A stretch of DNA of 56,162 nt, from positions 1 through 56,162 of IMG/VR virus record IMGVR_UViG_3300035664_000020; one strand, given 5' to 3'. Below, one piece after another: positions 21,803-25,503 of this stretch. Every line of letters starts with the position of its first letter. Positions within the stretch are counted from its first letter, which is position 1. Source of the stretch: a virus. Under the pieces are notes generated by a model. The model searched no databases. It was given only the letters and a program-made list of their open reading frames with translations, and had not been told where the DNA came from. The position numbers and the translations under genes were made by a program.

Positions 21803-22066
21803 TCAGTTATTGATAAAGTGTGCGTCAATCTCTGCTGCAATGTCCTCAACCATGTCGTCCAAAGTATCCACAGCACATTCCCAGACTGCATCGCGCATCA
21901 ATGGGTCGTAGCTGGCGATTTGAACGGCTAGCAGGTGGATAAGTACTTGGGTGGTTTCATCCCTAGATGCCTTCGTGTTATTAAGAGTACGAGCCAACTG
22001 ATTGTGAAGTCGGCACTCTGCCGATGGTTGTTTTGAGTTTGGCATTATTTGATTGTTCTCCGGCAT
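21803..22066 (-). CDS. Hypothetical small protein
   Basis: An 87-residue mainly helical protein (TTQVLIHLLAVQIASYDPLM; VDTLDDMVEDIAAEIDAHF). The stop is 2 nt from the next gene's start, and the 5' end overlaps the HNH gene by 22 nt. No recognised family. The overlap suggests that the HNH gene upstream was inserted next to its start. Confidence 0.5.
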   Translation of the reverse strand: MPENNQIMPNSKQPSAECRLHNQLARTLNNTKASRDETTQVLIHLLAVQIASYDPLMRDAVWECAVDTLDDMVEDIAAEIDAHFINN

Positions 22067-22689
22067 CTTCTTACACCTTTTGGTGTTGTTAAAATTTCTT
22101 CATCGCTCCATCCATTTTGGATTCTGTTCCATATTACAGAATGAGGCCAGTTCAATTCACGGCACCATTGAGTAAGCAGTTTAGACTCTCCATTTAAAGT
22201 TAAAAATTTAGAGTCACAACGATTCTCAGCTTGTTGCTTTGCCGTTGCCCATCTCACGTTGCACGGCTCATAATTTCCATTATTATTGATTCTGTCTAAT
22301 GAGTAAGATGAATCTGGAGGATGACCAACATCTTTAAAAAACAGATCAAACGGACTTTCTCCATTTTCACCAAATCTCCAACGGTTACACACTTGAATAC
22401 CACGTTTGCGATAATTCACATGTTGAGGTTTTGATCCATAACATCTGTTAAGCATAGATCTCCAAGCCATGTGAGTTTTTGATTCAATATCACCTCTGTA
22501 TTGCCCGTGTTTTACAGGTGAATTTTTACCTTTTAGGCAACCGCAACTTTTCTGCTTCAGCTTTTTCCCATCAATGCCTATCCATTTTTTGTTTCCACAA
22601 CTACATGCACAAAAGCAGTACCATTTGTTTTTTAGATATTGAAATTGATGATCAAGAACCAAAAGGTTATCAAATTGATTTCCCACCAT
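22045..22689 (-). CDS. HNH homing endonuclease with N-terminal CxCG/SCGC zinc module
   Basis: A 214-residue protein from the ATG at 22689; an in-frame ATG at 22806 would run through the conserved small gene at 22670-22810, so I prefer the inner start. Residues 1-57 form a zinc module (CACSCGNKKW then KSCGC), the same module found alone at 32034, 33420 and 35210. An HNH-type nuclease core follows: WRSMLNRCYG, YSLDRINNNGNYEPCNVRW. The C-terminus has a small repeat-like recognition part (LTLNGESKLLTQWCRELNW). Such proteins are mobile endonucleases that copy themselves into allelic sites. Confidence 0.8.
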   Translation of the reverse strand: MVGNQFDNLLVLDHQFQYLKNKWYCFCACSCGNKKWIGIDGKKLKQKSCGCLKGKNSPVKHGQYRGDIESKTHMAWRSMLNRCYGSKPQHVNYRKRGIQVCNRWRFGENGESPFDLFFKDVGHPPDSSYSLDRINNNGNYEPCNVRWATAKQQAENRCDSKFLTLNGESKLLTQWCRELNWPHSVIWNRIQNGWSDEEILTTPKGVRRCRRTIK

Positions 22690-22810
22690 TTTTTTTCGGT
22701 CTTCCGCCCTTTTTGCCATTAAGTTTAGACGATTGTGACTTAGCCATACTTTTTGCGCTGCCGCCTTTTTTTCCAAGTTCAACTGCGTTTGGATTTTTGT
22801 TTTCATTCAT
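22670..22810 (-). CDS. Small basic GKKGGRP protein
   Basis: A 46-residue ORF with NPNAVELGKKGGSAKSMAKS and NGKKGGRPKKNGGKS. This resembles a recurrent family of tiny basic proteins with Lys-Gly-Gly-Arg-Pro motifs, similar to AT-hooks, so DNA or RNA binding is plausible. It overlaps the HNH endonuclease start by 20 nt and an earlier possible HNH start entirely. The leader is ATTATTATCATTATG without SD. Confidence 0.6.
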   Translation of the reverse strand: MNENKNPNAVELGKKGGSAKSMAKSQSSKLNGKKGGRPKKNGGKSI

Positions 22811-22838: not shown

Positions 22839-23170
22839 TCAAGAGAAAATATCAATAATCACTTTTTCTTCTTCGCCTTTTTCTGCCTTGCGTTGGATTG
22901 TCTCAATTTTTGTTTTGCTTGCTTCGTCGCCAGATATGATTCCAGCGTATCTGCATAAATCGACATGGTATTTTTCGCACAAATTGTCTTCGTCGATAAG
23001 TCGTTTGCGGACGCTCGTAACACGGACAAGAATTCTTTGGCTAGTTGATCCTTGAACTTTTTTCTTGCCCAATGGTGCATCCCTAGAATCTCGTTCCATG
23101 ATGGTAACTTGCTTGGAATTGTAAGCGAGCAGATCGGGACTGGCATTTGGGAAATGTCGCAAGATTCCAT
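22839..23170 (-). CDS. RusA-like Holliday junction resolvase, apparently made by -1 frameshift
   Basis: Two overlapping frames hold the two halves of a RusA-like protein. The 5' frame (starting 23170; stopping at 22859 if unshifted, 103 residues) has LTIPSKLPSWNEILGMHHWA, the RusA N-terminus. The 3' frame has VTSVRKRLIDEDNLCEKYHV and DLCRYAGIISGDE, with the catalytic-type acidic DxDN region. They meet at A AAA AAG (minus strand, 23063-23057) placed exactly in X XXY YYZ phase; a -1 slip there gives 110 residues, close to RusA's ~120. RusA cuts four-way junctions during recombination. A decayed gene or indel is the alternative. Part of the RecE-like/RecT/SSB module. Confidence 0.7.
23057..23063 (-). 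promoter_or_regulatory. Slippery heptamer A AAA AAG (putative -1 frameshift site)
   Basis: The 0-frame codons are AGA AAA AAG, giving the canonical heptamer that E. coli dnaX uses. After a -1 slip, reading continues GTT CAA GGA into the frame carrying the RusA catalytic region. An upstream AGGG lies about 17 nt away, a weak stimulator candidate. Confidence 0.6.
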
Positions 23171-23187
23171 GGTAATTTAGAGTCACA

Positions 23188-23328
23188 TTATCCCTCCATT
23201 TCCAATTCAATCACGCGAATCCTTGCCCACTCAATCCATTCGGATTCGGCTTTGCTGATTTCCTCTTTGCAGGAGTGATAGACAATCGCATCGTCAAACA
23301 GTGCGATCTTTTCTTTGTTTGGATTCAT
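23188..23328 (-). CDS. Hypothetical 46-residue protein
   Basis: Small ORF reading MNPNKEKIALFDDAIVYHSC, then KEEISKAESEWIEWARIRVI and a short acidic end. The start overlaps the previous gene's stop by 4 nt (ATGA), which supports coupled translation. Its 3' end carries GGAGGGA, which may serve as ribosome site for the downstream RusA-like frame, though the 20-nt spacing is long. Helical; no family recognised. Confidence 0.5.
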   Translation of the reverse strand: MNPNKEKIALFDDAIVYHSCKEEISKAESEWIEWARIRVIELEMEG

Positions 23329-23589: not shown

Positions 23590-23964
23590 CTAAAACGGAA
23601 TATCATCACCATTATCTAATTCTGTTTCTTGCCGCTTAGCTGGAGTTGCTGTTTTTGGCGCAGAACGAGATCCACCATCGAAGATGAACTCTTTTCCATT
23701 GCCAATAAATGGAGTGTACTTCTTGGCTTGGCGTTCTTCCTTGGTGGTGCTCTCAGATACACTGTGAGTTTTGCCAAACTTGTCTTCGCCATCACGGTTG
23801 CTTTTCACATCCAGAGATAGGTAACACTTGCCATTTGCATGTGCGTTGATGCGGCTCTCTGGGATGCAGATTGCGACATACTCTTTGCCGTCTTTTCCGG
23901 TGATTTTCTTTGCGCCCTGAAGAGCGAGAAGATCAAAACTGATATTGATTGTGCTATTTGCCAT
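23590..23964 (-). CDS. Single-stranded DNA-binding protein (SSB-like)
   Basis: A 124-residue protein. An N-terminal ~95-residue beta-rich domain (MANSTINISFDLLALQGAKK; YVAICIPESRINAHANGKCY) is followed by a Lys/Thr/Pro linker and the acidic tail DNGDDIPF, the hallmark C-terminal tip by which SSBs recruit partners. It sits 10 nt from the RecE-like gene and upstream of RusA, as in phage recombination operons. It should coat single strands during replication and annealing. The OB-fold assignment is inferred from size, tail and context. Leader AACAAAAACAATATG, no SD. Confidence 0.75.
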   Translation of the reverse strand: MANSTINISFDLLALQGAKKITGKDGKEYVAICIPESRINAHANGKCYLSLDVKSNRDGEDKFGKTHSVSESTTKEERQAKKYTPFIGNGKEFIFDGGSRSAPKTATPAKRQETELDNGDDIPF

Positions 23965-23974
23965 ATTGTTTTTG

Positions 23975-24769
23975 TTATTTTAACCAGCGTTTTTGCTCCC
24001 AGATTGGTACATCTAGTGAGATGATTCCTTTACCGTATCCTTGCCACTGTCCGGTTTCAAGACACTTCTTATAAGTTTCGACAGCGTAGTCCATCTGTGC
24101 CTGACCAATGGCAATTGCCTCTGGTGGTGGCTGATAAATGCACACGTCTGCGGCTTCGTTTGTCTCAGCAACCAGCCAAAAATAGGCCGGTTCTACATCA
24201 AGGCCAAGCTCAAGTGAGAGCAACGCCTTGTAATACTGCATCTGCATCATGTAGCGCAGACCGAAAGCCTTGCGTCCCCATAGCTCAGGATCAGCTTCTG
24301 AAGTTGTTTTGAAGTCCACGATGATAGGCTTACCACTTTCATCCTGGCCGTATGCGTCAAGCCTTCCCTTAATCTCAACACCCTTGTAATTGTTCACAAT
24401 ACCTATCTCACGCTGCTTGCACAAGTTGAGCATGTATTGAGCATCTGGGCTATTGCGGACAGCCTCAACAGTGCGGACAACTGTTGCATGCTCAGCCAGA
24501 GACAGGATGGTCATGCCAGCGTGTTTATCGCGCCATGCCTTTCCTTCTTTGGTCCGAAGATCAATATCAACAGGCTTAACGGTATGGCTGTATGGTTTGC
24601 CTTCGAGCACAGTTTCGTGAACGATGGTTCCAATAGTCATCTCAATCGTTGGCTCAAAGGATTTCTTGAGCGATGACTGATAATGCTTTGGGGACTTGAG
24701 GATCGTCTTCAAGCTGCTGAAATTAGCAGCCGGATGAGAGCGGTATGTTTGTTCGTCTAGGATAATCAT
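23975..24769 (-). CDS. RecE-like PDDEXK exonuclease (DUF3799 type)
   Basis: A 264-residue protein. Early motif NFSSLKTILKSPKHYQ and GTIVHETVLEG match the helical lead-in of exonuclease-VIII-like proteins. The nuclease core is GRLDAYG followed by PIIVDFKTT (D...D-x-K) and MMQMQYYKALLSLELGLDV (Q-xxx-Y), typical of PDDEXK nucleases. It resects double-strand ends 5' to 3' to expose single strands for the neighbouring RecT. The start overlaps the recT stop by 4 nt. Confidence 0.85.
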   Translation of the reverse strand: MIILDEQTYRSHPAANFSSLKTILKSPKHYQSSLKKSFEPTIEMTIGTIVHETVLEGKPYSHTVKPVDIDLRTKEGKAWRDKHAGMTILSLAEHATVVRTVEAVRNSPDAQYMLNLCKQREIGIVNNYKGVEIKGRLDAYGQDESGKPIIVDFKTTSEADPELWGRKAFGLRYMMQMQYYKALLSLELGLDVEPAYFWLVAETNEAADVCIYQPPPEAIAIGQAQMDYAVETYKKCLETGQWQGYGKGIISLDVPIWEQKRWLK

Positions 24770-25503
24770 GCTGCAACCTCCTGCATCGAAGGAAGCGCAA
24801 GGCTTGCGGTTGGTTTTGGAGTTACATCGCGTTCAAGAACGACATCGCCATCTTTCTCGATGTGCTCTGCGATCTCGCTAGCAAGTGGCAGCAGTTTGCA
24901 CAGTCGGCGCAAAGTGGTCTTCTTTGCCATCTCACCGTAATCCGTAACCCATGGACCGGAGTTGCCAGAACGCGAACGCTTGCGGATAGCATCAACCTCA
25001 TCCTTTGTCATTGTAGCGGTTTGAGTCTCACCGGACTTGAGCACAGCTTCTGCGTACACAGCCTGGATTTCTCCACGAGGTTTACGCCACTCGACCTTGT
25101 GCGTGATTTTGCCATTTTCCCATACGAACTCATCATTCTCACAAACGAGTTCAGAGCGAATGCTGACAACATCGCCAGAGCGACGGACAAGCTCGATCAT
25201 ACCAATATATGAAAGAATCAGAGTGCATTCAGATCCGTAAGGAATCAGATAAGCGCGACGGCCATCTGGTTCAAGGCCAGCGGCTGATAAATCAAGCAAG
25301 CACTTAAAAAGGCTCGTTTGCGTGCAATCCTGCAACTTTGGAGTTCGCTGCAATGCTGTGAGAGCAATGCGTGAGAACCGCTCAGGAGTCATGTGCTTTG
25401 GCAGCGCCAATGCTACTTGCTCACGGAACTTTTCTCCGCCGATCATCTCTTTGAGAGTCGGCTGCTTAATCGTTGGTTTTGTTTCTGTATTGTTGTCGCT
25501 CAT
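24766..25503 (-). CDS. recT: RecT-family single-strand annealing protein
   Basis: A 245-residue protein. RecT hallmarks: RFSRIALTALQRTPKLQDC, SLFKCLLDLSAAGLEPDG, RRAYLIPYGSECTLILSYIG, then a GEMAKKTTLRRLCKLLP block at the C-terminal end. It anneals complementary single strands and works with the RecE-like nuclease encoded directly downstream. The leader is A-rich (ACAAAACACATG) with no Shine-Dalgarno. Together with SSB and RusA this is a complete phage recombination set. Confidence 0.9.
   Translation of the reverse strand: MSDNNTETKPTIKQPTLKEMIGGEKFREQVALALPKHMTPERFSRIALTALQRTPKLQDCTQTSLFKCLLDLSAAGLEPDGRRAYLIPYGSECTLILSYIGMIELVRRSGDVVSIRSELVCENDEFVWENGKITHKVEWRKPRGEIQAVYAEAVLKSGETQTATMTKDEVDAIRKRSRSGNSGPWVTDYGEMAKKTTLRRLCKLLPLASEIAEHIEKDGDVVLERDVTPKPTASLALPSMQEVAA

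Follow-up and report, generated by a model that had tools for sequence, protein, structure and literature searches.

A RusA-type resolvase of a phage lineage group probably divided between two overlapping genes

Two overlapping open reading frames on the minus strand of a 56,162-nucleotide viral sequence (IMG/VR record IMGVR_UViG_3300035664_000020, positions 1 to 56,162; this whole stretch is referred to here as the window) each carry one of two complementary blocks of RusA. We consider it probable that they represent a RusA-type Holliday-junction resolvase split into two genes that are translated separately, with the products assembling after translation. It is also likely, at slightly lower confidence, that this phage lineage group encodes an obligate two-subunit RusA, the subunits being halves of one small domain, each encoded in a frame that fully overlaps the other, with a helix of one half and the adjacent strand of the other specified by the same bases, and with a new C-terminal helix in the product of gene A.

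The coordinates of the locus are given in Table 1. Gene A is nested within gene B and lies in the +1 frame relative to it. The start of its translation reads ...LTIPSKLPSWNEILGMHHWARKKFKDQLAKEFLSVLRAS, and the tail at the other end is lysine-rich, as described in an earlier note on this DNA for the product made in frame A without slippage. Frame B, one base earlier than frame A, is open over 22839-23210 (minus strand) and contains RILVRVTSVRKRLIDEDNLCEKYHVDLCRYAGIISGDE.

Table 1. Features of the gene A and gene B locus and of the adjacent recombination genes in the window.
Feature	Coordinates	Strand	Details
Gene A	22859..23170	-	103 aa; RusA strand 1, PSWN loop, helix 1 and C-terminal lysine-rich helix
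Gene B	22839..23186	-	115 aa from GTG 23186; own N-terminal segment and RusA catalytic half (strand 2, D65, D67, K72, D87)
GGAGGG, Shine-Dalgarno-like site ahead of the B start	23192..23197	-	B start SD energy -9.8 kcal/mol
A AAA AAG heptamer	23057..23063	-	in phase, not conserved
A helix 1 DNA (A residues 33-57)	23000..23074	-	AlphaFold2 model and residue-level selection
B strand 2 DNA (B residues 52-60), doubly constrained zone inside A helix-1 DNA	23007..23033	-	AlphaFold2 model, codon-position profile, third-base diversity 0.07 at codon -9
B catalytic residues	22926..22994	-	D65 22994-22992, D67 22988-22986, K72 22973-22971, D87 22928-22926; alignment invariance
A C-terminal helix (A residues 68-102) over B catalytic DNA	22865..22969	-	model; partly above synonymous null
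FPNASPDLL motif, B N-terminus	23127..23153	-	common to many lineages
RecE/exonuclease VIII-like PD-(D/E)XK nuclease	23975..24769	-	PF12684 5e-21, phrog_412 2.1e-54
RecT single-strand annealing protein	24766..25503	-	PF03837 1.2e-46

Both halves are homologous to RusA. Two ordinary single-frame RusA genes, L163 and L164, were met during the search for relatives; on L163 a profile of A matches residues 3-35 and a profile of B residues 46-107, side by side, which bears out the earlier note's observation that the two frames hold complementary RusA blocks. When the profile is joined, with A taken through helix 1 and B from strand 2, it matches L163 as one domain over residues 7-108 (32.7 bits). With junctions picked by eye from the RusA block order, the joined halves of the window match phrog_1682 (RusA-like) at an E-value of 6.6e-7, compared with 0.013 for a fusion at the heptamer, 0.29 for A alone and no match for B alone; the joined halves match it in 20 of 21 lineages (best 2.4e-9), A alone in none of 46, and B alone in nine of 47. 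A Pfam search gave no match for either half, and the joined halves match PF05866 in one of 21 lineages (E 0.039). No further RusA match was found elsewhere in the window.

The N-terminal strand, PSxN loop and helix 1 of RusA are present in gene A, where P23 and N26 are invariant. The invariant columns of B in a 47-row alignment are R60, D65, D67, K72, D76, R79, D87 and Q98, of which D65, D67, K72 and D87 correspond to the RusA acidic residues when B is aligned with L163. The block order (strand 1, PSxN, helix 1, strand 2, DxD, K, D) is that of the RusA family (PF05866; phrog_1682, phrog_34), and the place in a recT/recE recombination module is also shared, but two polypeptides from overlapping frames stand here in place of one chain of about 120 aa, and PSxN to DxD spans 37 codons rather than about 54 as in L163. 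Variant active-site motifs are seen in the catalytic block of some B relatives, with DEDN replaced by DEDG or DWDG in L100 and L045 (RLADEDGLCEK, RLADWDGIVGK), and DPDG or DADG in L158, L189, L190 and L196.

AlphaFold2 single-chain models give a strand-helix-strand-strand arrangement for B and two helices for A. Foldseek comparison of the B model with solved RusA structures finds 2h8c weakly (E about 2, ranks 35 and 46), and finds no solved RusA with the A model; sequence and profile searches of solved structures return no significant match, with the joined profile finding 1q8r at E 1.3. Weak structure matches are as expected for half domains, though no proof of them.

The two-frame layout is deeply conserved. 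Relatives were found by searching viral contigs and bacterial genome contigs with B, disregarding A, and dozens of viral contigs, several of them tied to Verrucomicrobia, carry the split pair with its frames in the same relation; the relatives include Verrucomicrobium sp. BvORR034 and BvORR106 and two Verrucomicrobia MAGs. Phage and plasmid record collections yielded none, save one weak archaeal-virus match. The A block, with the motif PS[WL]N...HW.R.K.K or one close to it, lies in the +1 frame of B in each split relative that was read, with gene A identities of 27-100%, and reduction to <90% identity leaves 59 lineages, their median B-core identity being 0.45. The P codon of PSWN and the first catalytic D codon (DxDN) are separated by exactly 110 nt in all 81 measured loci; in the most divergent lineages the separation is 107 nt (L158, L189, L190, L196) or 122 nt (L159), always 2 mod 3, and indels have therefore been retained only in multiples of three. 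In all of the split lineages examined the RusA blocks are in different frames rather than on one continuous chain.

Relative to the single-frame RusA L163, the spacing in the window is shorter by 52 nt (3n+1), as might result from a sequencing error, an assembly indel or the recent decay of a RusA gene. There is a parallel in the RusA-like gene 44 of SPP1 (product G44P), which once seemed to be without its N-terminal part, and where the apparent truncation was a sequencing error (PMC3485210). Here, in contrast, the two-frame state is conserved across lineages, with dozens of independent assemblies, some as low as about 37% in identity, showing the same layout, and with both frames open and selected. 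Conservation across 59 lineages therefore excludes error and recent decay, to which we assign a negligible probability, in agreement with the earlier note that the gene is not decayed.

That note proposed that programmed -1 slippage at the A AAA AAG heptamer, as in dnaX, joins the frames into a single, near-full-length RusA of 110 residues. The heptamer does lie in X XXY YYZ phase on the minus strand (A codons AGA AAA AAG), it is shared by the close clade of the window and a few other lineages, and the fusion matches RusA, although weakly. AAAAAAG is present eight times in the window compared with 17 expected by chance, and the heptamer alone is thus not unusual. Among the lineages that keep the two-frame layout, the heptamer is not conserved: A AAA AAG or A AAA AAA is in phase in only nine of 66, at three different positions, and is missing from the 57 others, which have codons such as AGA AAG AAG, TAC AAG TTC or GCA AAG CTA at the same place. 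No stimulating RNA structure was found downstream of the window heptamer, where folding is less stable than in shuffled sequences (z +1.12), and no Rfam elements were found in the window or in the close relative L097. Because the heptamer is rare and the RNA structure lacking, slippage is not what maintains the layout.

Further evidence against slippage comes from the frames themselves. Upstream of the site, all 59 lineages have frame B open (33.8 expected), and frame A is under selection downstream of it. The fusion is without the end of helix 1, and a profile of it splits into two domains on L163 with a gap at residues 40-53; in five paired tests of the RusA match the joined halves scored better than the slipped fusion in all five. 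A single slip is unable to restore RusA because the end of helix 1 in A and strand 2 in B share the same bases. We therefore regard programmed frameshifting as quite improbable; the likeness to dnaX ends with the in-phase heptamer of the window, and differs in that the heptamer is not conserved, a stimulating structure is lacking, and the two frames are selected separately. The earlier note, which cautioned that a helix is missing from the fused product, is partly supported: its observation was right and its caution proved to be the key, but the mechanism was wrong.

Both frames are under selection. The most variable codon position passes from the third base of A upstream to the third base of B downstream, with the handover at the helix/strand zone, and codon-position variability indicates restraint on both frames in an interval that begins about 45 nt ahead of the catalytic D codon and ends about 20 nt ahead of it. 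Null tests, which take the lineages as independent and so overstate the exact odds while leaving the direction unaffected, were made for A by holding the B amino acids and redrawing the codons from local usage; A residues above this null include F-13 (98% vs 35%), L-12 (77% vs 20%) and L-9 (98% vs 30%, with 32% stops). At fourfold-degenerate B codons, third-base diversity is 0.07 at codon -9 compared with about 0.65 elsewhere. The conserved A residues are hydrophobic helix positions that are reached through varying bases in divergent lineages, and selection on protein rather than on RNA is therefore favored. The tail of A is a long helix in the model and has probably acquired a role, since it is partly above the synonymous null (L+16, 68% vs 17%; Y+19, 55% vs 11%); it is mostly missing in L151 and L159.

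At several positions the A tail tracks B closely, as would be the case if B were the sole gene and A a by-product of B codon choice. Upstream of the overlap, however, the dependence runs the other way: B residues before strand 2 are mostly dictated by A (E-34, 85% vs 89% in the null; L-26, 91% vs 91%), and the third positions of A are the most variable there. The by-product reading is refuted for the N-terminal part of A, and as an account of the whole gene we consider it very unlikely. Frame A is open past the overlap in 57 of 59 lineages, compared with 31 expected, and since both frames are open beyond chance, both are most likely translated through.

In the window and at many other loci each frame has a clear start of its own. 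The ATG of gene A (23170) is 16 nt beyond the GTG of gene B (23186), and B is thus not a 3' extension of A. An SD energy scan found no clear Shine-Dalgarno sequence for the gene A start in the window. The start of B in the open reading frame list, TTG 23210, is not conserved, with a stop between it and the GTG in several close relatives. The B and A starts are also 16 nt apart in L086, L091 and L092 and are 7 to 10 nt apart in others, and in another lineage group the start of A coincides with strand 1, tens of bases within B.

The N-terminal modules of B vary, and include FPNASPDLL, CxxC...CPKC that is zinc-ribbon-like (L105, L108, L111), and DAMRRCMHREP (L110, L128); these alternatives support an upstream start for B. 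A nearby ATG for B is lacking in several marine lineages (L173, L179-L181), where B may start 78 nt ahead of the catalytic Asp codon, at a TTG, GTG or ATG that the A tryptophan codon creates. Against such a late start, frame B continues open upstream of this point in all lineages, in excess of the chance expectation, and recognisable N-terminal modules lie upstream in many. We note that in L105, L108 and L111 it is the LCHRCGEHYIGRACPKC zinc-ribbon-like segment that replaces FPNASPDLL at the B N-terminus, and the module seems to have been swapped between lineages.

From these comparisons we infer separate translation, assembly and activity of the two products, together with a route of origin. 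The pair would probably have arisen from a normal RusA gene that was shortened out of frame, by about 52 nt, between helix 1 and strand 2; frame A would from then on read the strand-2 DNA as the end of its helix; frame B would then have gained an upstream start, with selection keeping both frames. B, which begins first, would be translated from its own start and supply strand 2 and the catalytic acidic residues, and A, nested in its +1 frame, would supply strand 1, the PSxN loop and helix 1, as well as the extra lysine-rich helix. The two polypeptides would associate to rebuild one RusA fold, and two A+B pairs would probably form the usual RusA dimer.

Alternatively, A and B could be overlapping genes with separate jobs and no rebuilt enzyme, in which case B alone might act as a minimal nuclease, and A might bind DNA or have a regulatory function while retaining an old piece of RusA. 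The second selected segment of A and the variable N-terminal modules of B are in keeping with this, as each protein may thereby have gained functions. However, in every lineage examined the RusA blocks complement one another exactly, and none was found with the A or the B block alone, and strand 1 and helix 1 belong to the core fold of RusA. Separate jobs thus seem unlikely to us, and a two-polypeptide RusA remains the reading that we prefer.

The proposed arrangement has some likeness to other phage systems. Rz and Rz1 of phage lambda are an out-of-frame nested gene pair, both products of which are needed for one task; nesting of one gene in another frame of a second is common to both loci, but the products here would be halves of one small enzyme domain. 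Two-polypeptide phage endolysins are likewise made from a single locus, but their second product is read in the frame of the first and ends at the same stop codon (PMC9430671), whereas A and B differ in frame. No earlier description of a split RusA was found in the open-access literature searched.

If it is borne out, the A/B locus would provide a clear example from nature of overprinting that has split a single enzyme domain, two adjoining parts of the same fold being encoded in two frames by one stretch of DNA, and it would illustrate how an out-of-frame event can yield a stable two-subunit enzyme rather than a dead gene. It also offers a test bed for mutual constraint between overlapping genes. 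Gene finders and frameshift predictors are likely to label such loci as pseudogenes, sequencing errors or programmed frameshifts, and phages with a split RusA appear to be without a resolvase because profile searches mostly miss both halves.

The A/B pair is flanked by the RecE-like exonuclease and RecT genes on one side and by replication initiator and primase-helicase genes on the other; phages often keep a resolvase in recombination and replication neighborhoods of this type. At the expected place of ssb, a 124-aa open reading frame (23590-23964, minus strand) ends in DNGDDIPF, an acidic tail like those of single-stranded DNA-binding proteins, and its family matches are weak. Two putative endonuclease insertions lie at or beside the locus. 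In L097 (3193-4160), B is cut after DEDNLCEK by a segment with an endonuclease-like open reading frame, the remainder of the B catalytic half was not found at that locus, and contig L098 ends at the same point; a mobile endonuclease may have inserted there, among the active-site codons. Immediately downstream of A/B in the window clade is an HNH endonuclease open reading frame (22045-22806, minus strand), which is probably a homing endonuclease insertion, since A/B is followed directly by the next gene (MPNSKQPS.../MPNAKQPS...), with no HNH open reading frame between, in L007 and in relatives of the L086 type.
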